Source: an uncultured Bacteroidota bacterium (GTDB lineage Bacteria > Bacteroidota > Bacteroidia > Bacteroidales > VadinHA17). Taken from it: DNA of 32,665 bases. Under the pieces are notes generated by a model. The model searched no databases. It saw nothing but the letters and a program-made list of their open reading frames with translations, and was not told where the DNA came from. A program made the position numbers and the translations under genes. Below, in pieces: positions 13,967-30,965 of the stretch. How positions within the stretch are numbered: position 1 is the stretch's first letter; each line of letters starts with the position of its first letter. The DNA lies in the NCBI GenBank assembly GCA_937864815.1, contig CALMJY010000341.1:1-32665 (forward strand), read 5' to 3'.

Positions 13967-14836
13967 ATGTCAAGTACTTTTCACAGGATTTACCTGTCTG
14001 TCTTTGTAGCTATTGTCTTTATTACTCTGGTAACCTTTATATATATGGGTACCTCATATTATTCTACCGGACTTGAGGAAAGAGTTTATCACACAGACCA
14101 TAAAGCTTTGAAACCCAGTGGATTCATTGGGCATGGACTTGGAATAGCAGGTTCTGTATCTATGATTTTGGGAGTAAGTCTGTATATGGCAAGGAAAAGA
14201 TATCGTTTTCTCTCAAGGGCAGGTCTTTTGAAACACTGGCTTGAGTTCCATATTTTCCTGTGTACACTGGGTCCGCTTTTAGTACTCTTCCATACTGCCT
14301 TTAAGTTCGGAGGCTTGGTTGCAATCAGTTTCTGGAGTATGGTGGCTGTATTTATCAGTGGCATAATCGGCAGGTTTATTTATCTGCAGATACCCCATTC
14401 AATTGAAGGCCGTGAGCTAAGTCTCAATGAGATAAGGGATATGAAAAGCGATATCGTATCTGTTGCGAAGGTTAAATATAAGCTTGATGATGAAACCTGT
14501 AATATTCTGGCTGATTCTGTAAAAAGAAAGACACTTATATACCACAGCAATGTATTTGTTCGTTTATTTAATAGTTATATTAATGATCTGAAAGTTAAAA
14601 ACTCTGTAAAGGCGTTATTAAAGAGAAAGAAAATCTCATCTTCTGAATCAAAGCAATTGATTGATCTAGTGAGTAACGATATAATGATTAACAGGAGGAT
14701 AGAACAGCTTGAAACAATGCAGAAATTCTTCAGGTACTGGCATGTGATTCATCTTCCCTTTGCAATAGTTATGCTGATAATTATGATAGTACATGTTGGA
14801 GTTACTATTCTGTTTGGTTACAGATGGATATTTTAA
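13967..14836 (+). CDS. Membrane cytochrome b-like subunit (first gene of cytochrome operon)
   Basis: 289 residues from ATG 13967; an earlier ATG at 13913 adds 18 residues without similarity to anything recognised. Five likely membrane helices lie at about 10-28, 53-73, 90-110, 116-138 and 262-283. Histidines suited to haem b ligation are H95 and H109 on helix 3, H259/H262 just before the last helix, and H276 in it. A soluble charged insert (about 145-255) separates helices 4 and 5. The layout resembles cytochrome b561 or ferric-reductase-like electron carriers that pass electrons across the inner membrane. The 3' end overlaps the Fe-S/FAD oxidoreductase gene by 13 nt, so the two probably form a complex. 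Quinol oxidation or transmembrane electron transfer is inferred. Confidence 0.75.
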   Translation: MSSTFHRIYLSVFVAIVFITLVTFIYMGTSYYSTGLEERVYHTDHKALKPSGFIGHGLGIAGSVSMILGVSLYMARKRYRFLSRAGLLKHWLEFHIFLCTLGPLLVLFHTAFKFGGLVAISFWSMVAVFISGIIGRFIYLQIPHSIEGRELSLNEIRDMKSDIVSVAKVKYKLDDETCNILADSVKRKTLIYHSNVFVRLFNSYINDLKVKNSVKALLKRKKISSSESKQLIDLVSNDIMINRRIEQLETMQKFFRYWHVIHLPFAIVMLIIMIVHVGVTILFGYRWIF

Positions 14837-16173
14837 CTATGGAATCATTTATTGAAAATGTACTGATTTATTCAATGGCAATCATCCTTTGCCTTGTTGT
14901 GGTTGTTATCTATCTGCGAAAGAAAAAGAAGGAATCAGGAATAGTTGAGGGTAAAATCAGGGAAGCAAAAGAAGCCGGTCTTCACGAACCTTTATCACTT
15001 CATCCATTTGTTGATCCCAACAGGTGCATTCAGACAGGGGCATGCATTTCAGCCTGCCCTGAAAAAGATATACTTGGTATAAGGGACGGTAAGGCAACAA
15101 TAATAAATGCTTCAAGGTGTATTGGACACGGTGCCTGTTTTCATGCCTGCCCTACTGAAGCGATAAGCCTTAGAATGGGTACTGAGAAGAGAGGTGTTGA
15201 ACTACCTCACGTAAATCAGAATTTTGAGACTAATGTACCCGGAATATTCATCGCCGGAGAACTAGGTGGAATGGGACTTATAAAAAATGCAGTAGAACAG
15301 GGCAAGCAGGCGGTGGAAAATATTGTAAAAAAATTGAAAAGAGACCATGCTGCTTCATTTGATCTGATTATAGTAGGAGCAGGACCGGCAGGGATATCAG
15401 GAGCTCTTACCGCAAAAAAGCATGGTCTGGATTTTTTAATCCTTGAACAGGATACACTCGGAGGAACAGTTTTCACATTTCCAAGGAAAAAAATAGTAAT
15501 GACCTCGCCAATGGATCTGCCTCTGTATGGTAAAATCAAGCTGTATGAGACCTCTAAATCCGAACTACTCGACCTCTGGCAGTCAGTGCTTGGGAAAAAT
15601 AATATCACTGTAAACGAGAATTCAAAGGTTGAAACCATTCTCTCAGAAGATGGGATTTTCAGGATTAAAACTATAAAAGGGACAGAATTTACAACAACCA
15701 CAGTACTTCTTTCAATAGGAAGGAGGGGGACTCCCCGCAAGCTGAATATACCCGGAGAAAGCAGGGAAAAGGTGGCTTATCGTCTTCTTGAACCGGAAGA
15801 GATTCTTGGAAAAAATATTATTGTTGTTGGGGGTGGAGATTCTGCTGTTGAATCAGCCCTTTTACTCAGTGACAATAATCATGTTATATTGTCGTATCGT
15901 CAGGAGGTATTTAACAGAATTAAACCTGCAAATAGCAACGCTTTGAATAAAGCCGTGGCTGAGGGCAAGCTGGAGGTTAAGCTTGGTTCAAACCTGTTGT
16001 CAATTGAAGATGACTCTATTCTACTTACAACGGGTAAGGAAGGAGAGGCAACCAATTATGCCAATGATCTTGTCTATATTTTTGCAGGAGGTGAATTACC
16101 CACACAGTTTCTCGAAAAGGCCGGCGTAAAGATCACAAAAAAGTTTGGCGAAATAGTTCTGAGTCATAAATAA
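14824..16173 (+). CDS. Membrane-anchored Fe-S/FAD oxidoreductase (thioredoxin-reductase-like)
   Basis: 449 residues: an N-terminal membrane helix (about 11-31), a ferredoxin-like domain (60-120), then a two-dinucleotide-fold flavoprotein with FAD motif GAGPAGISGALTAKKHG (185-201) and a second motif IIVVGGGDSAVESALLL for NAD(P)H. The two Fe-S motifs read C68-x2-T71-x2-C74-x3-C78-P and C99-x2-H102-x2-C105-x3-C109-P, so the second cysteine of each is replaced. A TNVPGIFIAGELGGMG segment (137-152), normally at the C-terminal end of such reductases, sits before the FAD fold. The CxxC disulfide of thioredoxin reductase is absent, so the partner is more likely the cytochrome b than thioredoxin. ATG 14839 is an alternative start. 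Predicted role: exchange of electrons between NAD(P)H and the membrane cytochrome. Confidence 0.85.
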   Translation: MDILTMESFIENVLIYSMAIILCLVVVVIYLRKKKKESGIVEGKIREAKEAGLHEPLSLHPFVDPNRCIQTGACISACPEKDILGIRDGKATIINASRCIGHGACFHACPTEAISLRMGTEKRGVELPHVNQNFETNVPGIFIAGELGGMGLIKNAVEQGKQAVENIVKKLKRDHAASFDLIIVGAGPAGISGALTAKKHGLDFLILEQDTLGGTVFTFPRKKIVMTSPMDLPLYGKIKLYETSKSELLDLWQSVLGKNNITVNENSKVETILSEDGIFRIKTIKGTEFTTTTVLLSIGRRGTPRKLNIPGESREKVAYRLLEPEEILGKNIIVVGGGDSAVESALLLSDNNHVILSYRQEVFNRIKPANSNALNKAVAEGKLEVKLGSNLLSIEDDSILLTTGKEGEATNYANDLVYIFAGGELPTQFLEKAGVKITKKFGEIVLSHK

Positions 16174-16175
16174 AG

Positions 16176-16205
16176 GGCTGAAGGCTGAAGGTTTAAGGCG
16201 CAGGG
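16176..16205. repeat. Heptad repeat after the oxidoreductase stop codon
   Basis: Two exact GGCTGAA units (16176-16189) are followed by diverged units GGTTTAA and GGCGCAG, all 7 bp long, starting 2 nt after the TAA at 16171-16173. The array fills most of the 57-bp gap before the first multihaem cytochrome gene. Confidence 0.6.
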
Positions 16206-16230
16206 TAATAAACAGGATTTAAAATTATAT

Positions 16231-17823
16231 ATGCAGAGAGTTTATTTGATACTGACTTTTCTTGTACTGTACAATATCAGTCCGGATGTGCTTAGGGCAC
16301 AGCTCTCCCCTGGCGATCTTTCAAATGTTCATGCCAATCTTGAGGGACTGTCTAATTGCACCCAGTGCCATGTGCTTGGAAATAAGGTATCTTCTGATAA
16401 ATGTCTTATATGTCATACTGAGATAAAGACAAGGATTGAATCAAAAAAAGGTTATCACGCTTCATCTGATGTTGCAGGAGGAGAATGTGCCTTATGTCAC
16501 AGTGAACATAACGGAAAAAATTTCAGATTAATAAACCTGGACACCGAAAATTTTGATCATGACCTGACAGGTTATCATCTTTCAGTCCCTCATGCTAAAA
16601 AGGCCTGCACTGATTGTCATACTCCTAAAAATATTTCTGATCCGAAAATCAGGGCAAAAAAGAAAACTTACCTGGGTGTTGGACAGGAATGCCTGACCTG
16701 TCATGCTGATTATCATGTTAGAACCCTGTCCTCAGATTGCCTGAATTGTCATGACCCGGAGAAATTTGTTCCTGCTTCAAAATTCGATCATAATGAGGCA
16801 AAGTTTAAACTTGCGGGTAAGCACAGAAGTGTTGATTGTGTTAAGTGTCATACAATAAAGTTAACTGATGGGGTTAAATTTCAACACTTCAGGGGAATTC
16901 AATATACCAACTGTACCAGCTGCCATAAAGATCCTCATAATAATCAATTCGGGCAAAACTGTCGGAAATGTCATAGTGAAGACTCTTTCCGGTCCGCACA
17001 GGGAATACCTGGTTTTGATCATAACCAGACTGGTTATAAGCTGGAAGAGAAACACCTGATTGTTAACTGTAAATCATGCCATAAAAATAAGCTGACAGAT
17101 CCAATCAAGCATGACAACTGTTTCGATTGTCATATTGATTACCATAATGGTCAATTTGTGAAAAACGGTGTCAGACCTGACTGTACCCAATGCCACAGTT
17201 TAAAAGGATTTACCACTTTTTCATATACTGTTGAACAGCATGATCAGGGTAACTTTCCTCTTAAAGGGGCTCACCAGGCAATCCCCTGTTATGAGTGCCA
17301 TAAAAAACAGGAAAAATGGAACTTCAGAAATATCGGGGTAAATTGTAAGGATTGCCATCAGGATGTACATAAGGCATTTATCCGTCCCGAAATCTATGCC
17401 GAATCCGGGTGCCGGGTATGTCATAATGAGATCAGCTGGAGCAACATAACCTTTGACCATTCAAAAACGGGTTTCCTGCTTACGGGAATGCATGTAAAAT
17501 CAGAATGCAGGAGTTGTCATTTCAGGGAATATGATGGCAGTATTCAACAGAAATTCAACGGATTATCACATCAGTGTTCCGCATGCCATGCTGATAAACA
17601 TTACCGGCAGTTTGAAAAAAATGGAATCACCAACTGTACAGATTGCCACAGCACTGACAATTGGAAAGCTTCCGGATTCGATCACAACTCTACCGCTTTT
17701 AAGCTTGACGGAAAGCATGTGAATGTTCCATGCTATAAATGTCACAAGCCCCAACAGGAGGGTAATATACTTTATACCAGGTACAAAATAAAGGAATTCA
17801 GATGCGAATCGTGTCATTCCTGA
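16231..17823 (+). CDS. Exported 20-haem c-type cytochrome
   Basis: 530 residues with signal peptide (hydrophobic 4-14; likely cleavage after LRA, before QLSPGDLS). I count 20 CxxCH haem-attachment motifs, from CTQCH near residue 43 to CESCH at the very C-terminus. Six irregularly spaced modules share the pattern F-x-H, then [FY]-x-L-x-G-x-H and C-x2-C-H, for example FDHNEAKFKLAGKHRSVDC and FDHNSTAFKLDGKHVNVPC, supplying non-motif histidines as likely distal ligands. This is a periplasmic cytochrome of the cytochrome c3-like superfamily. It follows the cytochrome b and Fe-S/FAD genes, so it is the likely first periplasmic acceptor. Its last 22 nt overlap the next cytochrome gene. Confidence 0.92.
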   Translation: MQRVYLILTFLVLYNISPDVLRAQLSPGDLSNVHANLEGLSNCTQCHVLGNKVSSDKCLICHTEIKTRIESKKGYHASSDVAGGECALCHSEHNGKNFRLINLDTENFDHDLTGYHLSVPHAKKACTDCHTPKNISDPKIRAKKKTYLGVGQECLTCHADYHVRTLSSDCLNCHDPEKFVPASKFDHNEAKFKLAGKHRSVDCVKCHTIKLTDGVKFQHFRGIQYTNCTSCHKDPHNNQFGQNCRKCHSEDSFRSAQGIPGFDHNQTGYKLEEKHLIVNCKSCHKNKLTDPIKHDNCFDCHIDYHNGQFVKNGVRPDCTQCHSLKGFTTFSYTVEQHDQGNFPLKGAHQAIPCYECHKKQEKWNFRNIGVNCKDCHQDVHKAFIRPEIYAESGCRVCHNEISWSNITFDHSKTGFLLTGMHVKSECRSCHFREYDGSIQQKFNGLSHQCSACHADKHYRQFEKNGITNCTDCHSTDNWKASGFDHNSTAFKLDGKHVNVPCYKCHKPQQEGNILYTRYKIKEFRCESCHS

Positions 17824-20800
17824 TATTGACCATTTTAAATCCTATGCAGGAGAGGACATCAAGTCCACATGGTACTGATTTCCGTATAACCTGCGGGACC
17901 TGTCATAGTTCTAAAGGATGGCATCTGGATAAGGAGATCTATACTTTCAACCATAGTGCAACCACATTTCCGTTAAGCGGGGAGCATAATAATGTAAACT
18001 GCAGGGAGTGTCATCCCACTCTCATTTTTAAAGATGTTAAGACTCAATGTTCCGATTGTCATAATGATATACACCAGGGAACAGTCGGGCTGGAGTGTTC
18101 ACGATGTCATACACCGAAATCATGGCTGGTTGAAAACATAAATGATATCCACAGAAGGAGCAGGTTCCCACTGGAGGGTGCTCACAGGACTGCCATTTGT
18201 TCCGATTGTCATAAGTCCGAATCAATGGTCCGGTTTGACGTACCGGGAGTAGAATGCATTGATTGTCACAGACAGGATTATCAGTCTGCTGAAGAACCAA
18301 ATCATGTACAGGGAGGATTTCCGGAGGATTGTTCTTTCTGCCATCAGGTTAACTCTATTCAGTGGACACAAACAGAATTTACTCATAATCAGTTCCCCCT
18401 TGAACAGGGGCATTCATCAGCAAAGTGTTCCGATTGTCATTTATCCGTTAACTATTCGGATGTTTCACGGGAATGTTATCAGTGCCATCAGGGTGATTAT
18501 ATTGAAACAAAGAATCCTGACCATAACGCTTCCATGCTGCCTACTGACTGCACAACATGTCACACTACGGTTAAAGGATGGAAGCCAACACTCTTTGACC
18601 ATACTGTCTTTCCCCTTACATTTGGTCACTCATCACCTGCATGTATAGAATGTCATATTGGCGGGAATTACACAAAAACCAATCCTGATTGTTTTTCATG
18701 TCATCAGCCAGATTTTACAGAATCAAAGAATCCAAATCATCAGGCAGCAGGTTTCTCTAAAGTATGCCTGACATGTCATACAACAAATCCTGGCTGGACT
18801 CCTTCCTCATTTGTACATTCACATTTTCGGCTTGAGCTTGCTCATTCAAAACCAGACTGCATCGAATGCCATGTCGGAGACAATTATACCACTCTCTCTT
18901 CTGATTGTTATTCCTGTCATACAAAAGATTATACATCTGCTTTAAATCCAAACCATTATGAAGCAGGATTTCCCCGGAACTGCCAAACATGTCACACTGC
19001 TAATCCGGGATGGGAACCAGCAAATTTTGATCATAACAGTTTTCCTTTAACACAGGGACATGCTACTCAGCTATGCTCGGATTGCCATCAGAACGGCAAT
19101 TTTACATCTACCTCCAAAGAGTGTTTTTCATGTCATAATGATGATTACCAGGCATCATCTAATCCGAAACATAGTGCAGCCGGATTTTCACAAGAGTGCC
19201 TGACCTGCCATTCTACAAGTCCGGGATGGAAACCGACAACATTCATTCATTCAATGTTTTCCCTGACAGATGGGCATTCTACACCTACATGCAATGAATG
19301 TCATACAGGCGATAACTATTCAACTCTGTCGTCTGAGTGTGTTTATTGTCATCAATCCGACTATAAATCAGCAGTTAATCCAAATCATACTGAAGCCCTT
19401 TTTCCCCTGAACTGCCTGTCATGCCATACAACTAACCCGGGATGGAAACCCACCACGTTTACCCACAATAGTTTCCCACTTGTCCAGGGACATTCGACTC
19501 CGGCCTGTGCTGATTGTCATAAAGCGGGAACCTATTTTGGACTTTCAAGTGACTGTTATTCATGTCATCAGTCAGATTTCAGGTCAACATCAAATCCTGA
19601 CCATTCTGCCGCTGCATTCAGCCAGTTATGTCAGACCTGCCATACACTTAATCCGGGATGGAAGCCAACATCTTTTTTACACAGTAAATTTTCACTTACC
19701 CTTGGTCATTCAGTTCCTGCCTGCATTGATTGTCACACAGGAGAAAACTATTCCGGTATATCTGCTGAGTGTCTGGCTTGTCATGAACCTGATTATGCTT
19801 CTTCATCAAACCCTAAACACTCGGCAGCAGGTTTTACAACATCCTGCCAGATCTGCCATACCGCTAATCCGGGATGGAAACCTACGATGTTTAATCATAG
19901 CAGATTCCCACTGACTGGAGGACATTCAACTGCAATATGCAACGATTGTCATATTGCCGACAATTACACCACATTACCGACTGATTGTTACGCCTGTCAT
20001 CAGCAGGACTTTCTTGGTGCCATAAATCCAAACCATGTGGATGCTATGTTTCCGCAGACCTGTGAAACTTGTCATACAACCAATTCAGGATGGAGGCCGA
20101 CAACATTCACACATGGATCATTCCCGCTTACTCTCGGCCATTCATCAGCAACCTGCAATGATTGCCACAAAGCAGGATACTATACTTCAACATCATCTGA
20201 ATGTTCTTCATGTCATCAGGCCGACTATGACAATTCAGTTGATCCAAAACACTCTGCAGCAGGTTTTTCTAATGTTTGTCAGGTTTGCCATACTACAAAT
20301 CCGGGGTGGAATCCAGCCACCTATAATCATTCTTTCTTTCCCCTTACTCTGGGTCATTCAGTACCAACCTGCAATGAATGTCATACTGGTGACAATTACA
20401 CAACCATAACTTCTGATTGCTATGGATGTCATCAGTCTGATTATACAGGTGCAGCTGATCCAAACCATGTAGCTGCATCTTTTCCACAGGTTTGCCAGAT
20501 ATGTCATTCCACTAATCCGGGATGGCAACCTACCATATATGATCATAGTACATTTCCTCTCACATTGGGTCATTCAATCCCTCAGTGTGCTGATTGCCAT
20601 ACAGGCGGCAATTATACCACGACACCTGCAGATTGTTATTCCTGTCATCAGACTGACTTTAATTCAACAGCAAATCCTGATCATACAGCTGCTGGTTTTT
20701 CACAATTATGTCTGACCTGCCATAATACAAACCCGGGATGGACTCCAACAACATTTACTCATACAGGTTTTCTCCTTACACTCGGACATTCAACGCCACA

Positions 20801-21419
20801 GTGCATTGATTGCCATACAGGAGAGAATTACACTACAACACCTGCTGATTGTTATTCATGTCATCAGGATAATTTCATAGCTGCAACAAATCCATCACAT
20901 GTGTCATCAGGTTTTCCTCACGACTGTCTGATTTGCCATACAACAAATCCCGGGTGGACTCCTGCAACCTATGATCATTCAAGCTTTCCGCTCACTCTCG
21001 GGCATTCCACACCTGCATGTTCAGATTGCCATACAGGAGGTAACTACACCACCACTCCAACTGATTGCTATTCATGCCATCAGGCAGATTATACCGCTAC
21101 TTTGAATCCCAATCATACGGCCGCAGCATTTTCCCATATTTGCCAGACCTGCCATACTACAGACCCGGGCTGGCAACCAGCTTCTTTCCTGCAGCATGAT
21201 AATCTTTATTTTCCGATATATTCCGGAAGGCATCAGGGGGTATGGGCCAGCTGTACAGAATGTCATACAAATTCTTCAAATTATAAAGTATTCAGTTGCA
21301 TAATTTGTCATGAACATAGCAATGTAACCGAGGTAAACGGTCATCATTCAGGAGTGTCCGGATATATTTATACTGCTACATCCTGCTATGATTGCCATAG
21401 GAATGGGAGAGTGAATTAG
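17802..21419 (+). CDS. Giant 49-haem modular c-type cytochrome
   Basis: 1205 residues and, by my count, 49 CxxCH motifs, about one haem per 25 residues. Layout: a short signal-like N-terminus (MRIVSFLILTILNP), an N-terminal region with 7 motifs, 13 tandem modules with 3 motifs each, and a C-terminal region with 3 motifs. Each module reads roughly C-x2-CH..NY..C-x2-CHQ.D[YF]..NPNH.AAGF..C-x2-CH..NPGW.P..F.H..FPLT.GHS, giving three non-motif histidines for three haems, as needed for bis-His ligation. The start overlaps the 20-haem gene by 22 nt. An in-frame stop 12 nt upstream (17790) excludes earlier starts. No transmembrane helix, lipobox or type IX sorting domain was recognised. Expected to be periplasmic or extracellular and to carry electrons over long distance; the terminal acceptor is unknown. 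Confidence 0.93.
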   Translation: MRIVSFLILTILNPMQERTSSPHGTDFRITCGTCHSSKGWHLDKEIYTFNHSATTFPLSGEHNNVNCRECHPTLIFKDVKTQCSDCHNDIHQGTVGLECSRCHTPKSWLVENINDIHRRSRFPLEGAHRTAICSDCHKSESMVRFDVPGVECIDCHRQDYQSAEEPNHVQGGFPEDCSFCHQVNSIQWTQTEFTHNQFPLEQGHSSAKCSDCHLSVNYSDVSRECYQCHQGDYIETKNPDHNASMLPTDCTTCHTTVKGWKPTLFDHTVFPLTFGHSSPACIECHIGGNYTKTNPDCFSCHQPDFTESKNPNHQAAGFSKVCLTCHTTNPGWTPSSFVHSHFRLELAHSKPDCIECHVGDNYTTLSSDCYSCHTKDYTSALNPNHYEAGFPRNCQTCHTANPGWEPANFDHNSFPLTQGHATQLCSDCHQNGNFTSTSKECFSCHNDDYQASSNPKHSAAGFSQECLTCHSTSPGWKPTTFIHSMFSLTDGHSTPTCNECHTGDNYSTLSSECVYCHQSDYKSAVNPNHTEALFPLNCLSCHTTNPGWKPTTFTHNSFPLVQGHSTPACADCHKAGTYFGLSSDCYSCHQSDFRSTSNPDHSAAAFSQLCQTCHTLNPGWKPTSFLHSKFSLTLGHSVPACIDCHTGENYSGISAECLACHEPDYASSSNPKHSAAGFTTSCQICHTANPGWKPTMFNHSRFPLTGGHSTAICNDCHIADNYTTLPTDCYACHQQDFLGAINPNHVDAMFPQTCETCHTTNSGWRPTTFTHGSFPLTLGHSSATCNDCHKAGYYTSTSSECSSCHQADYDNSVDPKHSAAGFSNVCQVCHTTNPGWNPATYNHSFFPLTLGHSVPTCNECHTGDNYTTITSDCYGCHQSDYTGAADPNHVAASFPQVCQICHSTNPGWQPTIYDHSTFPLTLGHSIPQCADCHTGGNYTTTPADCYSCHQTDFNSTANPDHTAAGFSQLCLTCHNTNPGWTPTTFTHTGFLLTLGHSTPQCIDCHTGENYTTTPADCYSCHQDNFIAATNPSHVSSGFPHDCLICHTTNPGWTPATYDHSSFPLTLGHSTPACSDCHTGGNYTTTPTDCYSCHQADYTATLNPNHTAAAFSHICQTCHTTDPGWQPASFLQHDNLYFPIYSGRHQGVWASCTECHTNSSNYKVFSCIICHEHSNVTEVNGHHSGVSGYIYTATSCYDCHRNGRVN
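18426..21251 (+). repeat. 13 tandem 3-haem modules, 216-bp period, inside the 49-haem cytochrome gene
   Basis: The first cysteine codon of each module falls at 18426, 18642, 18858, 19074, 19290, 19506, 19722, 19938, 20154, 20370, 20586, 20802 and 21018. All twelve intervals are exactly 216 bp (72 codons), with no indel. The thirteenth module is 234 bp because it runs into the C-terminal region (next motif at 21252). The modules differ in DNA sequence while keeping spacing and key residues, so this is an old or selected amplification rather than identical copies. Confidence 0.95.
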
Positions 21420-21444
21420 TAATATTGATAATAAAAATAAATTA

Positions 21445-22473
21445 ATGCAGATATTTATTCAATTCATAATCTATGCACTATCGCTAATTGCAACGCAGCA
21501 AATCAGCCATCCTCATGGTTCTGATTTTAAGGTAAGTTGCAGTCAGTGTCACAGTTCAGCAGGATGGCATTTTGACAAAAAGATCTATTCATTTGATCAT
21601 AACACAACTAAGTTACCACTTGTCGGCCAGCATACTGATGTTGATTGCCGGCAATGCCATAAGTCTTTAATATTCAAAGATGCTAAAACTGAATGCAATG
21701 AATGTCACAATGATATCCATCATGCAACGGTAGGACAGGAGTGTTCAAGATGTCATACTCCTGCATCATGGCTTGTAACAAATATTACTGAGATTCATTA
21801 TTTAAGCAGATTTCCTCTCCTGGGGGCTCACAAAACTGCCATGTGCAAAGATTGTCATAAATCTGAAAGCGTTGTAAGATTTGATGTGGCAGGAGTGGAT
21901 TGCATAGATTGTCACAGAGATGATTACAACTCAACCACAAAACCTGATCATGCCCAGGCAGGTTTTTCTGAAAACTGTATTGAATGTCATTCAATCAACG
22001 CATTTCAATGGGGAGGTGCGGGATTCAACCATAATTTTTTCCCATTGACCGAAGGTCATTCCCAACCTTCCTGTGCTGATTGTCATAAGGGAGGAAGTTA
22101 TACAGCTTTATCAAAAGAGTGTTATTCCTGCCATCAGACTGATTATAATAATACTACTAATCCAAAACATCTGACCCTGGGATTTCCGCAGACATGTGAA
22201 CTATGCCATACGCTTGCTCCGGGCTGGAAACCAGCAGCATACAAGGAACATGACAGTAAATCTTTCCCGATTTATTCCGGGAAACATAAAGGAGAATGGA
22301 ATGCCTGTACAGATTGTCATACTAATGCTTCAAATTATTCAATTTTTAGCTGTCTTACTTGTCATGAACATAATAAAGCCTCAATGGATAATACTCACAG
22401 AGAGGAAGGAGGATATTCATATGACAGTGCAGCCTGTTACAGATGCCATCCGAGGGGAGTGGCTGATGATTAG
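21445..22473 (+). CDS. Exported 13-haem c-type cytochrome, short paralogue of the 49-haem protein
   Basis: 342 residues with signal peptide (hydrophobic 3-16, ahead of SHPHGSDF). I count 13 CxxCH motifs: 7 in the N-terminal region, 3 in a single module, 3 at the C-terminus. It aligns with the preceding 49-haem protein without gaps at both ends. The distance from the Pro-His-Gly codons to the first module cysteine is 561 bp in both, and from that module to the first C-terminal haem 234 bp in both (using the last module of the long protein). It therefore lacks exactly twelve modules. It starts 25 nt after the long gene and meets the barrel gene at its 3' end. Possible roles are a cap, adaptor or barrel-associated cytochrome; these are inferences. 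Confidence 0.93.
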   Translation: MQIFIQFIIYALSLIATQQISHPHGSDFKVSCSQCHSSAGWHFDKKIYSFDHNTTKLPLVGQHTDVDCRQCHKSLIFKDAKTECNECHNDIHHATVGQECSRCHTPASWLVTNITEIHYLSRFPLLGAHKTAMCKDCHKSESVVRFDVAGVDCIDCHRDDYNSTTKPDHAQAGFSENCIECHSINAFQWGGAGFNHNFFPLTEGHSQPSCADCHKGGSYTALSKECYSCHQTDYNNTTNPKHLTLGFPQTCELCHTLAPGWKPAAYKEHDSKSFPIYSGKHKGEWNACTDCHTNASNYSIFSCLTCHEHNKASMDNTHREEGGYSYDSAACYRCHPRGVADD

Positions 22474-22480
22474 AAATTTT

Positions 22481-24106
22481 ATGAAGAAAGCGATTTTACT
22501 TTTTGCTATTTCTCTGGTTATTATTAACCTTTTCGGCCAGGCAGCTACAGAAAACCTGTCAGGGCAGGTCTCTTTTGTCTCATCAAAGAATGTATATGTC
22601 AAATTCAGCTCGACCAGTGGGATAACAGCAGGTGATACTCTTTACGCTTCGCAAAACGGGTCAGATATTCCTGTTCTTGTAGTTAATAATCTTTCTTCAA
22701 CTTCATGTGTCTGCACACCAATATCAGATAGAGTATTATCAGTTGCCGATAAGGTTTCAGCAAAAATCAGGCTGGCGCAGGATAAGGAATCTGCTGTTAT
22801 AAGTGATCCTTCACTTGCTGTTGCTGCCGTTCCGGTTCTGACTGATACGGTCCCTGTGAAGCAGACTTTATCTTCTGATACACCGAAACAACAGATCAGG
22901 GGCAGTGTGTCGGCATATTCATATTCTGACTTTTCAAATACAGGCGCAGATAATTCTCAAAGATTCAGATATACCATGTCACTCACTGCAAAGAATATCT
23001 CGGATTCAAGATTTTCATTTGAAAGCTATATCTCATTCCGTCATAAACTTGGCGAGTGGTCTGATGTTCAGCAGGATATTTTCAGTGCACTTAAGATCTA
23101 TAATCTTTCCGGGACTTTTGAACCTGATAAAACAATGCAGATCAGTATAGGAAGGAAGATAAACTATAATATATCAAGTATGGGTGCCATGGACGGGATT
23201 CAGTTTCAGAAAACATTTAAACGATTCTCACTGGGCGCTGTCGCAGGTTTTCGTCCTGATTATGAAAACTATGGGTTTAATTCAAGCCTCTTTCAGTACG
23301 GAGGTTTTGCTGCCTTCAAAGCAGGAAACACCAAAGCAGTGAATGAAAGTTCAGTGGCATTTATGCAGCAGATGAACGAATCGAAGACAGACAGACGTTT
23401 TCTGTATTTTCAGCACTCAAACTCATTCATAAAGGATCTTTATTTCATGGGAACTTTTGAAGTTGATTTATATGAATTAAAGATTGATTCACTTGGAAAT
23501 GAAACATCTTCCGGAACTTTCAGTCCCACGGGACTCTATCTTTCCCTCAGGTACAGGATTACTCCAAAACTAACTCTTTCAGGTGGTTATGATGCACGAA
23601 AGAATGTTATGTACTATGAAACTTATAAATCTTACATCGACAGGATTATCGATAATGAATTCAGACAGGGATTCAGGTTTAATGCCAGTTACCGTATAAC
23701 ACGTGACCTTTCTTTCGGATTAAACGGTGGTTACAGGTACATGAAATCTGATCCGCAACCTTCAACTAATCTGTATAGCTATTTTACTTACAACCAGATC
23801 CCTGTGTTGAAAATAACTGCAACTATTTCAGGAACATACCTCCAGTCAAGCTACATTAATGGTCTTATAGGAGGCCTAAACTTATCGCGAGATTTCTTTA
23901 ATGGAAAGATTCAGACCGGGATCGGTTACAGGTATATTGATAATGAAATCCCTGAGAATCTCAGTAAAATAAGACAGCATCTGGCTGACTTAAATTTTTC
24001 ATGGCAATTTTACAGGAAAATGGTTCTTTCAGTTAATTATGAGGGAACTTTTGAGGATCCCTACAGGTATAATATGATTTACGTCCAGGTGAGAAAGAGA
24101 TTTTGA
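22481..24106 (+). CDS. Outer-membrane beta-barrel protein of the cytochrome operon
   Basis: 541 residues from ATG 22481; ATG 22466 overlaps the previous stop by 8 nt and adds 5 residues. A signal peptide (MKKAILLFAISLVIINLFGQ) is followed by a small beta domain (about 20-95, SH3-like in pattern: GQVSFVSSKNVYVKF...GDTLYAS), a Pro/Thr-rich linker (about 100-130), and about 400 residues of alternating amphipathic strands with aromatic girdles ending in Phe, as in outer-membrane barrels. There is no CxxCH. The frame is open from 22196, but that part is the antiparallel reading of the cytochrome gene and is not coding. As last gene of the operon it is a candidate sheath or channel letting a multihaem cytochrome reach across the outer membrane, by analogy with porin-cytochrome conduits. 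I recognise no similarity to MtrB. Confidence 0.8.
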   Translation: MKKAILLFAISLVIINLFGQAATENLSGQVSFVSSKNVYVKFSSTSGITAGDTLYASQNGSDIPVLVVNNLSSTSCVCTPISDRVLSVADKVSAKIRLAQDKESAVISDPSLAVAAVPVLTDTVPVKQTLSSDTPKQQIRGSVSAYSYSDFSNTGADNSQRFRYTMSLTAKNISDSRFSFESYISFRHKLGEWSDVQQDIFSALKIYNLSGTFEPDKTMQISIGRKINYNISSMGAMDGIQFQKTFKRFSLGAVAGFRPDYENYGFNSSLFQYGGFAAFKAGNTKAVNESSVAFMQQMNESKTDRRFLYFQHSNSFIKDLYFMGTFEVDLYELKIDSLGNETSSGTFSPTGLYLSLRYRITPKLTLSGGYDARKNVMYYETYKSYIDRIIDNEFRQGFRFNASYRITRDLSFGLNGGYRYMKSDPQPSTNLYSYFTYNQIPVLKITATISGTYLQSSYINGLIGGLNLSRDFFNGKIQTGIGYRYIDNEIPENLSKIRQHLADLNFSWQFYRKMVLSVNYEGTFEDPYRYNMIYVQVRKRF

Positions 24107-24279: not shown

Positions 24280-24762
24280 CTATTCATATTCCTTTAGTAT
24301 CCCTTTTACATCATCGGGGGCAACCCTTCCGTATGTTTTGTCACCTACAAGAACCACCGGAGCAAGTCCGCAGGCACCTACGCATCTCAGACTTGAAAGA
24401 GAAAACTTGTTATCTTTGGTACTTTCCCCAACCTTGATTCCAAGCTCCTTCTTGAACTCCTCAAGTACTTTCTCTGCGCCTCTTACATAGCATGCAGTTC
24501 CCATACAGATGCTTATCGGATGTTTGCCTTTTGGAATCATGGTGAAAAATGAGTAAAAAGTCACCACTCCGTATATCTTGGCAACCGGCACATTCAGGTA
24601 CTCAGAAATTACTTCCTGTACTTCAGCCGGTAAATAACCAAAATGCTCCTGGCAACCATGCAGCACATTGATAAGTTCCTGTGAATCATTATTAAACTTT
24701 GAACATGTTTCTTTAATGAAGTCCACATCTTCTTTCCTTAATTCTATTTTTATACTGGACAT
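24280..24762 (-). CDS. hndA: NuoE-like [2Fe-2S] subunit of bifurcating-type [FeFe] hydrogenase
   Basis: 160 residues with the thioredoxin-like [2Fe-2S] fold of NuoE/HydC/HndA. Cluster ligands are C86 and C91 (CMGTAC) and C127 and C131 (CVGAC). The helical N-terminal part reads LINVLHGCQEHFGYLPAEV and the fold core VAKIYGVVTFYSFF. It passes electrons between the NuoF-like subunit and the other Fe-S centres in the cytoplasm. It is the last gene of the four-gene unit, 37 nt after the catalytic subunit. The subunit set is closest to the NADP-reducing hydrogenase HndABCD of Desulfovibrio, although gene order differs (B-C-D-A). Confidence 0.92.
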   Translation of the reverse strand: MSSIKIELRKEDVDFIKETCSKFNNDSQELINVLHGCQEHFGYLPAEVQEVISEYLNVPVAKIYGVVTFYSFFTMIPKGKHPISICMGTACYVRGAEKVLEEFKKELGIKVGESTKDNKFSLSSLRCVGACGLAPVVLVGDKTYGRVAPDDVKGILKEYE

Positions 24763-24799
24763 GATCGTGAATTTTTATATTGTCTGTTATTCTTATGTA

Positions 24800-26578
24800 C
24801 TATTTTTTGACGAGGATCTTATCTTTTCTGTCAAAGTAATGAGTGTGAAGCAGATGATGTGATTTCTCACTTCCCGGCTTACCTAAATACTCTTCATAAA
24901 GCTTGATTATGAAGGGATTCTCATGAGACTTTCTCAGTGGTTTTTTCCTGTCCTCAGTGTAAATAGCTGCTGCCCTTGCCTTGATGATCTCTGAATCACC
25001 ATGGTGCAGAGGTTGTCCTCCACCTCCTATACAACCACCAGGACAAGCCATTACTTCGATTGCAGTGAACTCTGATCTTCCATGTTTTACATCATCCAGC
25101 AGTTTGCGTGCATTACCCAGTCCGTGTGCAATCCCGATTTTTATTGGAGTGCCATTGAAATCAAGTGTTGCAGAACGTACACCTTCCATGCCCCTTAGTT
25201 CTGTAAAATCAAGCCTGTCAAGCTTTTTGCCTGTAAATATCTCATAAGCTGTACGGCAGGCAGCCTCAATCACACCACCGGTAGCACCAAAAATAACGCC
25301 GGCTCCGGTTGATTCCCCTAAAGGTGAATCAAAATCCTCATCATGCAGGTTTCTGATATCAATATTGGCCTGCCTGATAAAAGCTGCGAGTTCCCTTGTT
25401 GAAATTGAATAATCAACATCCGGATTACCATCAACCGAGAATTCATCCCTCTGGCATTCGTATTTCTTCGCAAGACATGGCATTATTGATACTACAACCA
25501 TATCCTTCCTGTTGATACCAATCTTTTCAGCGAAATATGACTTTGCAACTGCTCCGAACATCTGTTGCGGTGATTTTGCCGTTGAAGGAACATCCTTCAT
25601 ATCAGGATAATAGTATTCAAAGAAATTCACCCAGCCCGGACAGCAGGAGGTAAGAATAGGTATTCTTGCGGATTTGTCACCTTTGAGATGCCTCGATAAC
25701 CTGTCGAGAAGCTCAGTACCCTCTTCCATGATTGTAAGGTCTGCTGCAAAATCAGTATCGAATACATAGTCAAATCCCAGAGCCCTCAGAGCTGCTGTCA
25801 TCTTGCCTGTGACAAGAGTTCCCGGTTCCATCCCGAATTCTTCACCAAGAGCGGCACGTACTGCAGGAGCAGTCTGAACTACAACTGTCTTTGTCGGATC
25901 ATTTAGGGCCTTAAGTACCTGGGGAACATGATTTACTTCAGTAAGTGCCCCTGTAGGACAAACGGCCACGCACTGACCGCAATAAGTGCAGGATGAATAT
26001 TCAAGGTTCTGCTCAAAAGCAGGTCCTACAGCTGCTGTGAATCCCCTGTTGAATGCAGAAAGTGCACCTACAGTCTGAACATCATTGCACATCATTTCAC
26101 AACGTCTGCACATTATACATTTGTTGAGTTCCCTGATTATGGAAGGAGAGGTGTCCTGTCTGTAGGTAGACATCTCAGCAAATTCCTGACCGGGTATCTC
26201 CCTGATTCCAAGACGGTGAGCCATGTCCTGAAGTTCGCAGGTGCCTGATTTAGGGCATATGAGACAGTCCTTCGGATGATCCGAAAGGATGAATTCCATA
26301 ACTGTTCTGCGGGCATTCAGCACCCTTGCCGTATGTGTTTTTACTACCATGCCCGGTTCGCATTTGGTCGAACAGGTAGGAGCAAGGTTTCTTCTTCCCT
26401 GTACTTCCGCAACACAAATCCGGCAACCGCCGGGTTTATTTTCAATGTTGAGATCATGCAGGTCCATATAGCAAAGAGTAGGGATCTCAATACCCAGCTC
26501 TTTTGCTGCTTTTAATATTGTGGTACCCCTGGGTACTTCAATCTCTTTATTATCAATAGTAAGCTTTACTGTTTCCAT
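24800..26578 (-). CDS. hndD: [FeFe] hydrogenase catalytic subunit
   Basis: 592 residues. From the N-terminus: plant-type [2Fe-2S] (C36, C52, C55, C69), His-Cys [4Fe-4S] (H101, C105, C108, C114), two [4Fe-4S] (C154-C164 and C197-C207), then the H-cluster domain with TSCCPGW (310-316), MPCLAKKYE (366-374) and ACPGGCIGGGGQP (511-523). All H-cluster ligands are present: C313, C368, C512, C516, plus C312 as likely proton relay. It makes or consumes H2. The length matches HndD-type enzymes and lacks the extra C-terminal [2Fe-2S] domain of Thermotoga HydA. It lies 11 nt after the NuoF-like gene. No hydEFG maturase genes are in the window; they would have to be elsewhere. Confidence 0.97.
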   Translation of the reverse strand: METVKLTIDNKEIEVPRGTTILKAAKELGIEIPTLCYMDLHDLNIENKPGGCRICVAEVQGRRNLAPTCSTKCEPGMVVKTHTARVLNARRTVMEFILSDHPKDCLICPKSGTCELQDMAHRLGIREIPGQEFAEMSTYRQDTSPSIIRELNKCIMCRRCEMMCNDVQTVGALSAFNRGFTAAVGPAFEQNLEYSSCTYCGQCVAVCPTGALTEVNHVPQVLKALNDPTKTVVVQTAPAVRAALGEEFGMEPGTLVTGKMTAALRALGFDYVFDTDFAADLTIMEEGTELLDRLSRHLKGDKSARIPILTSCCPGWVNFFEYYYPDMKDVPSTAKSPQQMFGAVAKSYFAEKIGINRKDMVVVSIMPCLAKKYECQRDEFSVDGNPDVDYSISTRELAAFIRQANIDIRNLHDEDFDSPLGESTGAGVIFGATGGVIEAACRTAYEIFTGKKLDRLDFTELRGMEGVRSATLDFNGTPIKIGIAHGLGNARKLLDDVKHGRSEFTAIEVMACPGGCIGGGGQPLHHGDSEIIKARAAAIYTEDRKKPLRKSHENPFIIKLYEEYLGKPGSEKSHHLLHTHYFDRKDKILVKK

Positions 26579-26589
26579 TATTTTCCTGA

Positions 26590-28383
26590 TTAACTGATAT
26601 ATATTGCATCAAACTTACATTTCTCATAACAGGCGCCGCATTTAATGCATATTTCCTGGTTGATAAGGTGTACCTCTTTTCTTTCACCTGTTATTGCATT
26701 AACTGGACAAACTCGGGCACATGCAGTACATCCGACGCAATTTTCGGCATTTATTATGTATTTCATAAGACTCTTGCACTGGCCTGCAGGACACTTTTTA
26801 TCTGTTACATGAGCCAGGTATTCATCCCTGAAGTTTTCCATCATCGACAGAACAGGATTTGGTGATGACTGTCCCAGTCCGCATAATGATGTATCTTTTA
26901 TTACAACGCTCATATTCTTCAACCTGTCAAGATCTTGAATTTTGCCTTTTCCTTCGCAGATCTGTCCAAGAAGCTCATGAAGCCTCTTGTTGCCGATACG
27001 GCATGGTGCACATTTCCCGCATGATTCCTCAACTGTGAAGTCAAGGAAAAATTTTGCCATCGATACCATGCAATCATCCTCATCCAGTACTATCATTGCA
27101 CCTGATCCCATCATTGAGCCCGCAGCAATCAGGTTATCAAAGTCTATAGGAGTATCAAGGTGTTTCTCTGTAAGACAGCCTCCTGATGGACCACCTGTCT
27201 GAACGCCTTTAAATTTCTTTCCGTTTTTGATTCCTCCGCCTATCTCGAAAATAACTTCCCGAAGGGTTGTCCCCATGGGAACTTCAATTAAACCGACATT
27301 ATTAATCTTTCCTGCAAGTGCAAATACCTTGGTACCTTTTGATTTCTCAGTCCCTATACTTGAATACCATTTTGCACCTTTAAGTATAATTGCAGGAATT
27401 GAAGCAAATGTTTCAACATTATTTACGTTGGTAGGTTTTCCAAGGTAGCCCGACTCCGCAGGAAATGGAGGTTTAATTGTTGGTTCTCCTCTTAATCCTT
27501 CCATAGAGTGTATGAGAGCAGTTTCCTCTCCGCAGACGAAAGCACCTGCACCATATTTCAGCGAAATATCAAAGCTGAAGTTTGTACCGAAGATATTATT
27601 TCCGAGCAAACCATTCTCCCTTGCCTGGTTAATGGCAATCTTAAGTCTCTGAATTGCAAGAGGATACTCAGCTCTGATATAAATAAGACCTGTGGATGAA
27701 CCTATGCAGTAACCACAAATTGCCATTGCTTCAAGAACTGAATGAGGATCACCTTCAAGCACTGACCTGTCCATAAATGCTCCGGGATCTCCCTCATCAG
27801 CATTACAAACCACATATTTCTCATCAGATACACTCTTTTTTGCAAGCTCCCACTTAAGACCCGTTGAGAATCCGCCTCCTCCGCGACCTCTCTGTCCTGA
27901 TTCTTTAATCTCTCTGATCACCTGGTCGGGTGTCATTTCGGTGAGTACTTTGCCCAGAGCCTGGTAACCATCCCTTGCAATGTATTCATCAATATTTTCA
28001 GGATTAATAAAACCGCAGTTCCGGAGTGCTATCCTCATCTGCTTCTTATAGAAATCCATGTGTTTTGAGTCAGATACTGCTTCTTTTGTGGATGGATCCT
28101 TAAAGAGCAGCCGTGTTACTTTTCTGCCTTTGATGATGTGCTCATCGATAATTGTCTGGGTGTCTTCGGGCTTAACCTGAACATAGAATGTATTGTCAGG
28201 CATTACTTTAACTATAGGTCCTTTTTCACAGAAACCAAAGCAACCGGTTTTGATAACCTGTACTTTATCCGTCAGTACCTTTGCTTCCAGTTCATCCCTG
28301 AGATTGCAGACAATAGCATCGCTTTCTGCAGCGTGGCAGCCTGTACCGCCACATACCAGAAGATGCATACTGTATTTCGACAT
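26590..28383 (-). CDS. hndC: NuoF-like flavin/NAD(P)H-binding subunit of [FeFe] hydrogenase
   Basis: 597 residues in three parts. An N-terminal thioredoxin-like [2Fe-2S] domain has C11, C16, C48 and C52. The NuoF core has the glycine-rich NADH/FMN loop RGRGGGGFSTGLKWE (about 165-179), VVCNADEGDPGAFMDRS, and the [4Fe-4S] motif SCGKCAPCRIG. A C-terminal ferredoxin domain has two [4Fe-4S] motifs (CVGCTACARVCP and CIKCGACYEKC). This is the HydB/HndC subunit that oxidises or reduces NAD(P)(H) with FMN and is the proposed bifurcation site in this enzyme class. It lies 12 nt after hndB and 11 nt before hndD. The C-terminal ferredoxin domain separates it from complex I NuoF. Confidence 0.96.
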   Translation of the reverse strand: MSKYSMHLLVCGGTGCHAAESDAIVCNLRDELEAKVLTDKVQVIKTGCFGFCEKGPIVKVMPDNTFYVQVKPEDTQTIIDEHIIKGRKVTRLLFKDPSTKEAVSDSKHMDFYKKQMRIALRNCGFINPENIDEYIARDGYQALGKVLTEMTPDQVIREIKESGQRGRGGGGFSTGLKWELAKKSVSDEKYVVCNADEGDPGAFMDRSVLEGDPHSVLEAMAICGYCIGSSTGLIYIRAEYPLAIQRLKIAINQARENGLLGNNIFGTNFSFDISLKYGAGAFVCGEETALIHSMEGLRGEPTIKPPFPAESGYLGKPTNVNNVETFASIPAIILKGAKWYSSIGTEKSKGTKVFALAGKINNVGLIEVPMGTTLREVIFEIGGGIKNGKKFKGVQTGGPSGGCLTEKHLDTPIDFDNLIAAGSMMGSGAMIVLDEDDCMVSMAKFFLDFTVEESCGKCAPCRIGNKRLHELLGQICEGKGKIQDLDRLKNMSVVIKDTSLCGLGQSSPNPVLSMMENFRDEYLAHVTDKKCPAGQCKSLMKYIINAENCVGCTACARVCPVNAITGERKEVHLINQEICIKCGACYEKCKFDAIYIS

Positions 28384-28395
28384 AATATTTCCTCC

Positions 28396-28797
28396 TTATT
28401 CTTTTAAGTCAATTATCTGATAATTTACAGGGATGATACCATCGACCAGTTCACCTGTCTTTATATACTTTTCAATAATCTGATCTGCCCGTTTCAGGTC
28501 GACATAACCGAATACCACCGGATACTGGCCCGGGAGTTTCACTTCAATTGTCGGTTCTGCATAACAGTAACCCATACAACCGGTCTGGGTTACAACTGCT
28601 GACACGTTCCTCCTGTCAAGATGCTCAAGGAAGAATTCCATGATGGTTTTTGCTCCGCTTGCAATACCACATGTGGCCATAGATACTTTGACCTGTACAA
28701 TTCTTTCAGGATCAAGGGCTTTTGTCCGGATGTCGAGCCCTGTCTTCATTTCTTCGCGTCTCTTATTCAGATCCGCAAGTGATGTGATTTTTGACAT
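28396..28797 (-). CDS. hndB: Thioredoxin-like [2Fe-2S] ferredoxin, HndB-like
   Basis: 133 residues, first gene of the hydrogenase operon. The C-terminal two thirds form a thioredoxin-like ferredoxin domain with C43 (MATCGIASG), C74 and C78 (TGCMGYC). The position where the fourth ligand of C-x4-C types would lie is occupied by Gly/Ser, which I recall as usual for HndB proteins. It is the small electron-transfer subunit found with HndA, C and D. Family membership is clear from TCGIASGAKTIM and TGCMGYCYAEPTIEV; its exact role in the complex is less certain. Confidence 0.88.
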   Translation of the reverse strand: MSKITSLADLNKRREEMKTGLDIRTKALDPERIVQVKVSMATCGIASGAKTIMEFFLEHLDRRNVSAVVTQTGCMGYCYAEPTIEVKLPGQYPVVFGYVDLKRADQIIEKYIKTGELVDGIIPVNYQIIDLKE

Positions 28798-30902: not shown

Positions 30903-30965
30903 CCAGTACCCAGTACCCAGTACCCAGTACCCAGTACCCAGTACCCAGTACCCAGTACCCAGCAC
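30903..30965. repeat. Heptad array (CCAGTAC)8 abutting the M14 stop codon
   Basis: Eight exact copies of CCAGTAC (30903-30958) are followed by one variant, CCAGCAC (30959-30965). The array ends exactly where the stop codon of the M14 gene (30966-30968, minus strand) begins. The unit is the same as in the array downstream of the M28 gene at 29117-29144. Confidence 0.95.

Follow-up and report, generated by a model that had tools for sequence, protein, structure and literature searches.

A modular 49-haem cytochrome and its near-constant partner in a probable PCC3-like electron conduit of Bacteroidota

The DNA considered here (hereafter the window) is the 32,665-nucleotide contig CALMJY010000341.1 of assembly GCA_937864815.1, from an uncultured Bacteroidota bacterium (Bacteroidales, VadinHA17), and the system in question is a gene cluster at 13967-24106 that includes an open reading frame (ORF) with 49 CxxCH motifs, each presumed to bind one haem. 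We consider this cluster, with a probability of about 0.6, to be a PCC3-like trans-envelope electron conduit, made of a fixed periplasmic arm and an outward 49-haem arm that lengthens by trihaem modules. The 49-haem protein is one member of a widespread set and not a one-off, and it is probably an electrical lead of the cell envelope whose length can be adjusted. What is new here is a regular ladder of sizes beside a partner of nearly fixed size, across Bacteroidota and their neighbours; the operon, a 13-haem paralogue and the ladder were all absent from the first-pass annotation of the window, which had singled out the 49-haem frame.

A cytochrome built of trihaem modules

The single frame of 1205 residues with 49 CxxCH motifs that the first-pass annotation had reported is confirmed, and it divides as follows.

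17802..21419, + strand: 49-haem "elastic" cytochrome, whole ORF, single frame from ATG to TAG, 1205 amino acids (aa), 49 CxxCH
17802..18425, + strand: N-terminal cap, 7 haem sites and a short hydrophobic N-terminus (by eye, a weak candidate for a signal peptide)
18426..21155, + strand: array of 12 complete trihaem repeats, each of 72 residues (18426-21017), followed by a 13th triplet (21018-21155)
21156..21419, + strand: C-terminal cap, last 3 haem sites

Shuffling the residues of this protein 500 times yielded a mean of 0.7 CxxCH and a maximum of 4, against the real 49. The motifs are spaced 36-16-16-34-19-25-32-16-25, then 31-16-25 over and over, then 37-15-29, and the starts of the 13 CxxCH triplets, from 18426 to 21018, are separated by exact steps of 216 bp, every one in frame. 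The earlier claim of 13 modules thus holds for the triplet starts but not for the modules themselves: the 13th unit merges into the C-terminal cap with its last part altered, which leaves 12 complete 72-residue repeats, preceded by a 73-residue module of the same kind. Likewise, the three extra histidines said to be conserved in every module are present in all 12 complete ones, and over the 13 triplets NPxH/DPxH is found in 13/13, F/Y-x-H in 12/13 and GH in 12/13. In the register that matches the c7 domain, the residues invariant in the 12 complete modules are P9, H11, C20-C23-H24, G29, W30, P32, H37, F40, L42, H46, C51-C54-H55 and C67-C70-H71. Each complete module therefore has three CxxCH and three further invariant His, with no invariant Met, which would be enough for two His per haem and supports the regular, single-chain design with one distal His per haem that had been put forward. 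The whole protein has 104 His for its 49 haems and a residue/haem ratio of 24.6.

A repetitive gene in a draft genome of 348 contigs could be an artefact of assembly, or a pseudogene, but the probability that we give to this is negligible. Compared with one another, the modules are 50-70% identical in DNA (mean 61%) and 42-67% in protein (mean 54%), with identities by codon position of 0.70/0.72/0.45, and the longest exact repeat within 17802-22473 is 19 bp. Since the modules differ at 30-50% of their bases, exact repeats are this short and the codon-position pattern is that of a conserved protein, the collapsed or misassembled repeat that the first-pass annotation had named as a refuting outcome is ruled out; moreover, the same architecture is present in many other genomes and in a plasmid record marked complete. 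The modules are old and are maintained at the protein level by selection. The array was not reported by Tandem Repeats Finder run on the window.

When the module was searched against known structures, its single-module profile placed 3ov0, 3oue, 1rwj and 3ouq first in the PDB (E 0.0013 to 0.23), with unrelated chains below; the last three we take to be pieces of GSU1996. The best of them, 3ov0, is according to a figure legend GSU1996 itself, solved as a single chain of four trihaem domains (PMC10138318). Judged by profile, the module is thus a c7-like trihaem unit, closest as a single module to Geobacter GSU1996. Pfam Cytochrome_C7 gives the whole protein 181.3 bits (cut-off 24.8), and NCBIfam TIGR04257, named nanowire_3heme, gives it 59.3 (cut-off 40) in a score that sums the repeats; three CxxCH per 72-residue module in tandem is also the TIGR04257-type arrangement (domains of about 70-80 residues). 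NCBIfam decahem_SO scored 70.7 bits, below its cut-off of 192, and a phmmer search of the whole protein against the PDB gave no match at 0.01.

A ladder of haem numbers beside a near-constant partner

Elastic-type cytochromes and their partners were told apart by the CxxCH spacing of complete ORFs, with a class rule set after the sequences had been seen. On this footing, the elastic type comprises 100 distinct complete proteins of 10 to 94 haems, of which 91 have a haem number of 1 mod 3, namely 57/65 in the first set (relatives, order draw and named contigs, window included) and 34/35 in the phylum sample, which was fetched later. On the ladder, the numbers run 10, 13, 16 and so on to 49, then 55, 58, 61, 64, 70 and 94. 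The partner type, in 87 distinct complete proteins, has 20 haems in 76, 23 in 10 and 19 in one. Of 96 loci with an elastic-type gene, 87 also carry the partner type, and in 17 there are two or three genes of the elastic type, in many cases a long one with a short one, like those of the window.

The count leaves out ORFs that run off a contig or contain N, exact duplicates (locus L096 is the L059 contig) and those fitting neither spacing class, namely 2 in the first set and 8 in the second (four partner fragments or shortened frames, one unrelated 10-haem ORF and three 9-haem ORFs). It retains three near-duplicate pairs (91-99% identical), and a 40-haem Emticicia protein, itself on the ladder, stands outside the 100. 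Binomial values on the ladder are a guide only, related genomes being non-independent. The cytochromes of the G179 contig and of JAIOYV010000018.1 (Bacteroidales bacterium) are also exact duplicates.

How do such arrays change size? Lag identities and inspection by eye point to duplication blocks of one (L029, L059), two (L058, L060, the tail of L092), three (including the C-terminal cap, at the start of L092) or four modules (L065), and the arrays seem, from these sequences, to grow by duplication of module blocks. Modules are up to 94% alike in the congener G009 and some are identical in L092, against at most 71% in the lag-identity alignment of the window, which suggests that arrays have grown lately in some members and that the process is at rest in this copy. 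The window's module types look alternating by eye (F-P against F-S), and a strict two-module (6-haem) super-period is not claimed for it (lag-2 over lag-1 identity, p = 0.055); L058, L060 and L092 show such a period strongly (p = 0.0005, the lowest value that 2000 shuffles allow), and it was not seen in L026, L029, L059, L065, L093 and L094 (p 0.18 to 1.0).

In the open-access literature consulted, from which most subscription journals are absent, neither the 1 mod 3 ladder nor the near-fixed 20-haem partner was found described, and no search used those words for the ladder. The haem-number variation of such proteins has been called largely unexplored, in a paper that describes a 49-haem Burkholderiales cytochrome with insertion and deletion of CxxCH domains among its homologues, and in which a figure legend on Chloroflexi suggests gain and loss of motifs in pairs or multiples (PMC7399161).

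The genes of the conduit

The cluster holds, besides the 49-haem gene, the following genes.

13967..14836, + strand: inner-membrane b-type cytochrome-like protein (IMP), two WX3HX13H motifs and SGIIG
14824..16173, + strand: oxidoreductase with a 4Fe-4S ferredoxin domain and an FAD/NAD(P) pyridine-nucleotide domain (Pfam Pyr_redox_3 6.2e-41, Fer4_10 4.8e-10)
16231..17823, + strand: 20-haem cytochrome, the near-constant partner, 20 CxxCH
21445..22473, + strand: 13-haem short paralogue, with the same caps as the 49-haem protein and one module
22481..24106, + strand: predicted outer-membrane beta-barrel, 541 aa, N-terminal all-beta domain, C-terminal Phe

The IMP frame is open from TTG 13913, and ATG 13967, chosen by eye, is its likely start, since the alignments with most homologues begin only at residue 15-24. 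Among 49 full-length homologues (with one contig, L059 and L096, counted twice), both WX3HX13H motifs are kept in 47 and SGXXG in all 49, and Pfam and NCBIfam gave no match at the limits used. An IMP homologue is present in 51/64 loci scanned, several of them cut by contig ends, and a frame with both motifs in 29/37 loci of the phylum sample. Homologues of the iron-sulphur (Fe-S)/flavin oxidoreductase are found near cytochromes in relatives too. The alignment profile of the 20-haem protein matches 3ov0 (6e-9), high-molecular-weight cytochrome c, 6r2q_A, NrfB and others. Haem maturation is represented in the host genome by two Cytochrom_C_asm (PF01578) frames.

The barrel model has 22 predicted strands and gave fold matches to known barrels, and its gene adjoins the cytochrome genes, an arrangement conserved in relatives. 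MtrB-type barrels were not among the 50 best matches listed in each of two fold comparisons, which does not amount to an exclusion. The barrel's sequence profile found in the PDB nothing other than prefoldin (E 0.55-0.68), set aside as noise. In L058, L060, L077, L092, L093, L099, L105 and L124, the barrel is followed by a protein of about 240-270 aa with a tail like YDI-hydrophobic-MEE (by eye), annotated in L124 as "GW dipeptide domain"; the window has no such gene after its barrel.

The paralogue resembles the 49-haem protein in both caps (identity of 122/206 aligned residues for the N-terminal cap and 47/99 for the C-terminal 100 residues), and the haem arithmetic fits, 13 + 12 x 3 being 49. 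Shared caps, together with the loci that carry two or three elastic-type genes, would also suit a polymer in which the 49- and 13-haem proteins join end to end as longer filaments. This we hold to be very improbable. OmcS, OmcE and OmcZ polymerise from small cytochrome subunits, the ORF here has 1205 aa, and the chains of those three were not among the matches listed for the single- and four-module profiles (again, not an exclusion).

Comparison with known systems

The closest published counterpart is PCC3, and the likeness lies in layout and motifs, set against published descriptions of Sideroxydans and Leptothrix proteins. Both systems combine a porin (here a predicted barrel) with a very large cytochrome that is built of repeats and varies in haem number (PMC5566968, PMC10734462), a second large cytochrome of few fixed sizes (21, 24 and 27 haems in PCC3, PMC10734462; 20 or 23 here), an inner-membrane protein of about 300 aa with two WX3HX13H motifs and SGXXG (PMC5566968), and a low residue/haem ratio, a wire role having been proposed for PCC3. 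In the window, a predicted barrel lies beside the cytochromes, the IMP has the motifs, and a cytochrome of near-fixed size accompanies a variable one. The PCC3 cytochromes have medians of 21 haems (the fixed-size one) and 34 (the larger, repeat-built and variable one), and in the PCC3 model the first is periplasmic and the second extracellular. There are differences as well. The PCC3 outer cytochromes take 10-18, 26, 28, 29, 33 and 35 haems (PMC10734462), in contrast to 1 mod 3 here; the Fe-S/flavin oxidoreductase is an extra member of the operon; PCC3 porins have up to 42 strands, by another predictor, compared with 22 predicted here; and the hosts, unlike those of PCC3, are mostly Bacteroidota, where most searches looked.

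The single-chain haem wire, presented as new in the first-pass annotation, had precedents in print. Repeat-built cytochromes of up to 85 haems were already termed "molecular wires" for PCC3 (He et al. 2017, PMC5566968), GSU1996 (12 haems) and GSU2210 (27 haems) were described as single-chain "nanowires of hemes" (PMC10138318), and a 2023 survey of Gallionellaceae gave long linear AlphaFold models (PMC10734462). GSU1996 has, like the protein studied here, one chain of tandem trihaem domains (PMC10138318), and in our profile match the CxxCH of domain and module align. It comprises four domains, compared with 13 here, and each of these has a single His-Met haem, in contrast to a module with three invariant extra His and, from its sequence, no invariant Met; these extra His also seem to be placed elsewhere than in c7.

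Other systems are less close. OetABI, MtrCAB and OmbB-OmaB-OmcB also join a barrel with inner and outer multihaem cytochromes (PMC10553843, PMC5566968), but their cytochrome sizes and modular design differ, and the window locus was not filed with them. The unplaced PCCs of humic-lake Bacteroidetes, novel PCC-like clusters reported along with a putative PCC whose cytochrome has 51 haems (He et al. 2019, PMC6344600), may, judging by the description, be the same family; the available part of that account holds no module or ladder analysis. Elsewhere, six multihaem genes and a barrel are clustered in a Bacteroidetes metagenome-assembled genome (MAG; PMC8258643), and gene neighbourhoods with over a hundred motifs are on record (PMC11475568). 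The highest number reported for one cytochrome of electroactive bacteria is 86 haems, in Desulfuromonas acetexigens, by description a very large single chain like those studied here and expressed under extracellular respiration (PMC12133095). An ORF of 2364 aa in a Saprospiraceae MAG (L093, 6249-13343) exceeds it with 94 haems, expression being shown only for the D. acetexigens protein.

Proposed mechanism and its alternatives

Electrons would pass from the Fe-S/flavin oxidoreductase to the b-type inner-membrane protein and on to the 20-haem cytochrome, which, near-fixed in length, would bridge the periplasm towards the barrel; onward from there, the 49-haem cytochrome would be the outward, surface-exposed arm, delivering to an outside acceptor. 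This arm would consist of stacked c7-like trihaem modules with two His per haem, and its length would evolve by gain or loss of whole modules, singly or in blocks, which would be the reason why the haem number stays 1 mod 3. The 13-haem paralogue would serve as a short version for the tip, as an adaptor or as an alternative partner. The 20-haem cytochrome is likely the trans-periplasmic arm, because a bridge across a set width should keep its length and it nearly does so across phyla, and the elastic arm is placed outside because open space sets no length and the elastic gene does not keep its own. In GSU1996, 12 haems extend over about 12 nm, i.e., about 1 nm per haem, and at that spacing an arm of 49 haems would span roughly 45-50 nm. 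For the 49-haem protein the wire idea is plausible and, as said, was already proposed for this kind of cytochrome. In its stricter form, which is put forward tentatively, at slightly less than even odds, the width of the periplasm would keep the partner at 20 haems, and the outer arm would be a single-chain wire able to grow by whole trihaem modules anywhere between 10 and 94 haems, very roughly 10 to 90 nm.

Several results weigh against this conduit. The 49-haem protein has, by eye, neither a lipobox or surface-export signal nor a clear AxA site in its signal peptide, and its surface location is something we infer. Its c7 label is not exclusive, since the whole protein also passes the Pfam cut-offs of Cytochrom_c3_2, Cytochrom_CIII and the MtrC/MtrF II-IV domain, and the best single module reaches 25.6 bits on TIGR04257, under the cut-off of 40. 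A four-module profile put UndA first in the PDB (2e-8) and not GSU1996; that match was set aside, as its alignment pairs only some CxxCH. The AlphaFold model of four modules was too poor (predicted local distance difference test 59.6, predicted template modelling score 0.30) and had no match in the PDB, and the stacking of modules is again what we infer. Nine of the 100 elastic proteins are off the ladder: four have 42-residue gaps where a motif is missing, three have 12 haems at other spacing, L103 has several 48-residue gaps and L155 a changed end. No frame with both IMP motifs was found in 8/37 loci of the phylum sample, strong matches among same-genus genomes are patchy (3/35, namely G008, G009 and G017, with weak ones only in 2 more), and the physiological link to Labilibaculum, dealt with below, is at the level of the genus, the paper concerned naming other cytochromes (PMC5760507).

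The main rival holds that the 49-haem protein is a periplasmic reservoir, storing electrons so that its length would set capacity and not reach. GSU1996, the best solved match of the single module, is described as periplasmic and as a capacitor (PMC10138318), no surface signal is seen by eye, and a freely variable length suits storage as well as reach. Storage alone, on the other hand, needs no barrel, yet a barrel gene lies adjacent and is conserved, and the 20-haem partner could already serve in the periplasm; we deem the reservoir unlikely. In which direction would the conduit work? Export is favoured by the Fe-S/flavin subunit and by the Labilibaculum strains that reduce Fe(III), and the history of PCC3, reported first from Fe(II) oxidisers together with a model of electron uptake (PMC5566968), favours the reverse, with electrons travelling from Fe(II), a partner cell or a reduced solid to the inner membrane. 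The two COX1-family genes of the host genome would agree with uptake, but the operon's oxidoreductase fits export driven by NAD(P)H or ferredoxin at least equally, and the reversed conduit is accorded still less probability than the reservoir.

Distribution and significance

The conduit system is widespread but patchy. The 49-haem protein was matched at E 0.001 or better in 9 of the 60 nearest relatives (own genome included) and at 1e-20 or better in 40/393 genomes of an order draw (own included; 35/206 genera), and the 20-haem protein at 1e-60 in 38/395 genomes of a phylum draw (own included; 31/171 genera). Named genome contigs added 22 loci from, among others, Saprospiraceae, Bacteroidales, Labilibaculum, Melioribacteraceae, Ignavibacteriales, Calditrichia, Rhodothermales, Acidobacteria and Deltaproteobacteria. 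Labilibaculum euxinus A4 carries a cluster with 22 and 20 haems, and four strains of the genus other than A4 reduce Fe(III) oxides, one of them also, slowly, Mn(IV) (PMC5760507).

The complete plasmid record mentioned above is pEMTOL02 of Emticicia oligotrophica DSM 17448, where the conduit row opens with ccsA, followed by an IMP with both motifs, an NAD(P)-binding protein, cytochromes of 23 and 40 haems and a 538-aa protein judged by eye to be the barrel. The entire conduit, with its own ccsA cytochrome synthase, thus lies on a plasmid (L124, 754-12552), from which it follows that the system may move as a unit. A plasmid search aimed at proteobacterial PCC3 returned 19 records, the Emticicia one being the single close cluster; four of the other 18 were inspected and showed distant IMP homologues in other settings. 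These four (L125, L165, L166 and L167, on Alteromonas, Methylophaga, Variovorax and Spirosoma plasmids) adjoin an Fe-S or FAD oxidoreductase, with an annotated cytochrome in 3/4, in hydrogenase, heavy-metal or copper neighbourhoods.

Conduction across tens of nanometres by long single-chain cytochromes could be put to the test in this family. Its natural variants range from 10 to 94 haems, have similar caps and come with a partner of near-constant size and a barrel, which makes the dependence of reach or current on length directly testable, and, if the length-quantised proposal were true, they would form a natural series in which a single covalent wire, in different lengths, is fitted to the same socket. 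Accessible hosts are at hand in the Emticicia type strain and the Labilibaculum isolates. An electron-conduit role is also suggested for many Bacteroidota that are not usually regarded as electroactive.

Other observations

On the minus strand, convergent with the conduit operon, the window carries at 24280-28797 an [FeFe]-hydrogenase set (Fe_hyd_lg_C, Complex1_51K, 2Fe-2S_thioredx) that appears to resemble the trimeric NADH-linked bifurcating type. Elsewhere in the host genome, weak matches to the trihaem profile (E 0.004 to 0.009) at C62:4517-4723, C241:20220-20348 and C133:5803-5937 make additional multihaem cytochromes possible. Finally, between two minus-strand ORFs of the window, at 30903-30966, the 7-mer CCAGTAC is repeated nine times in tandem (98% match) and could be a slippage-prone spacer.

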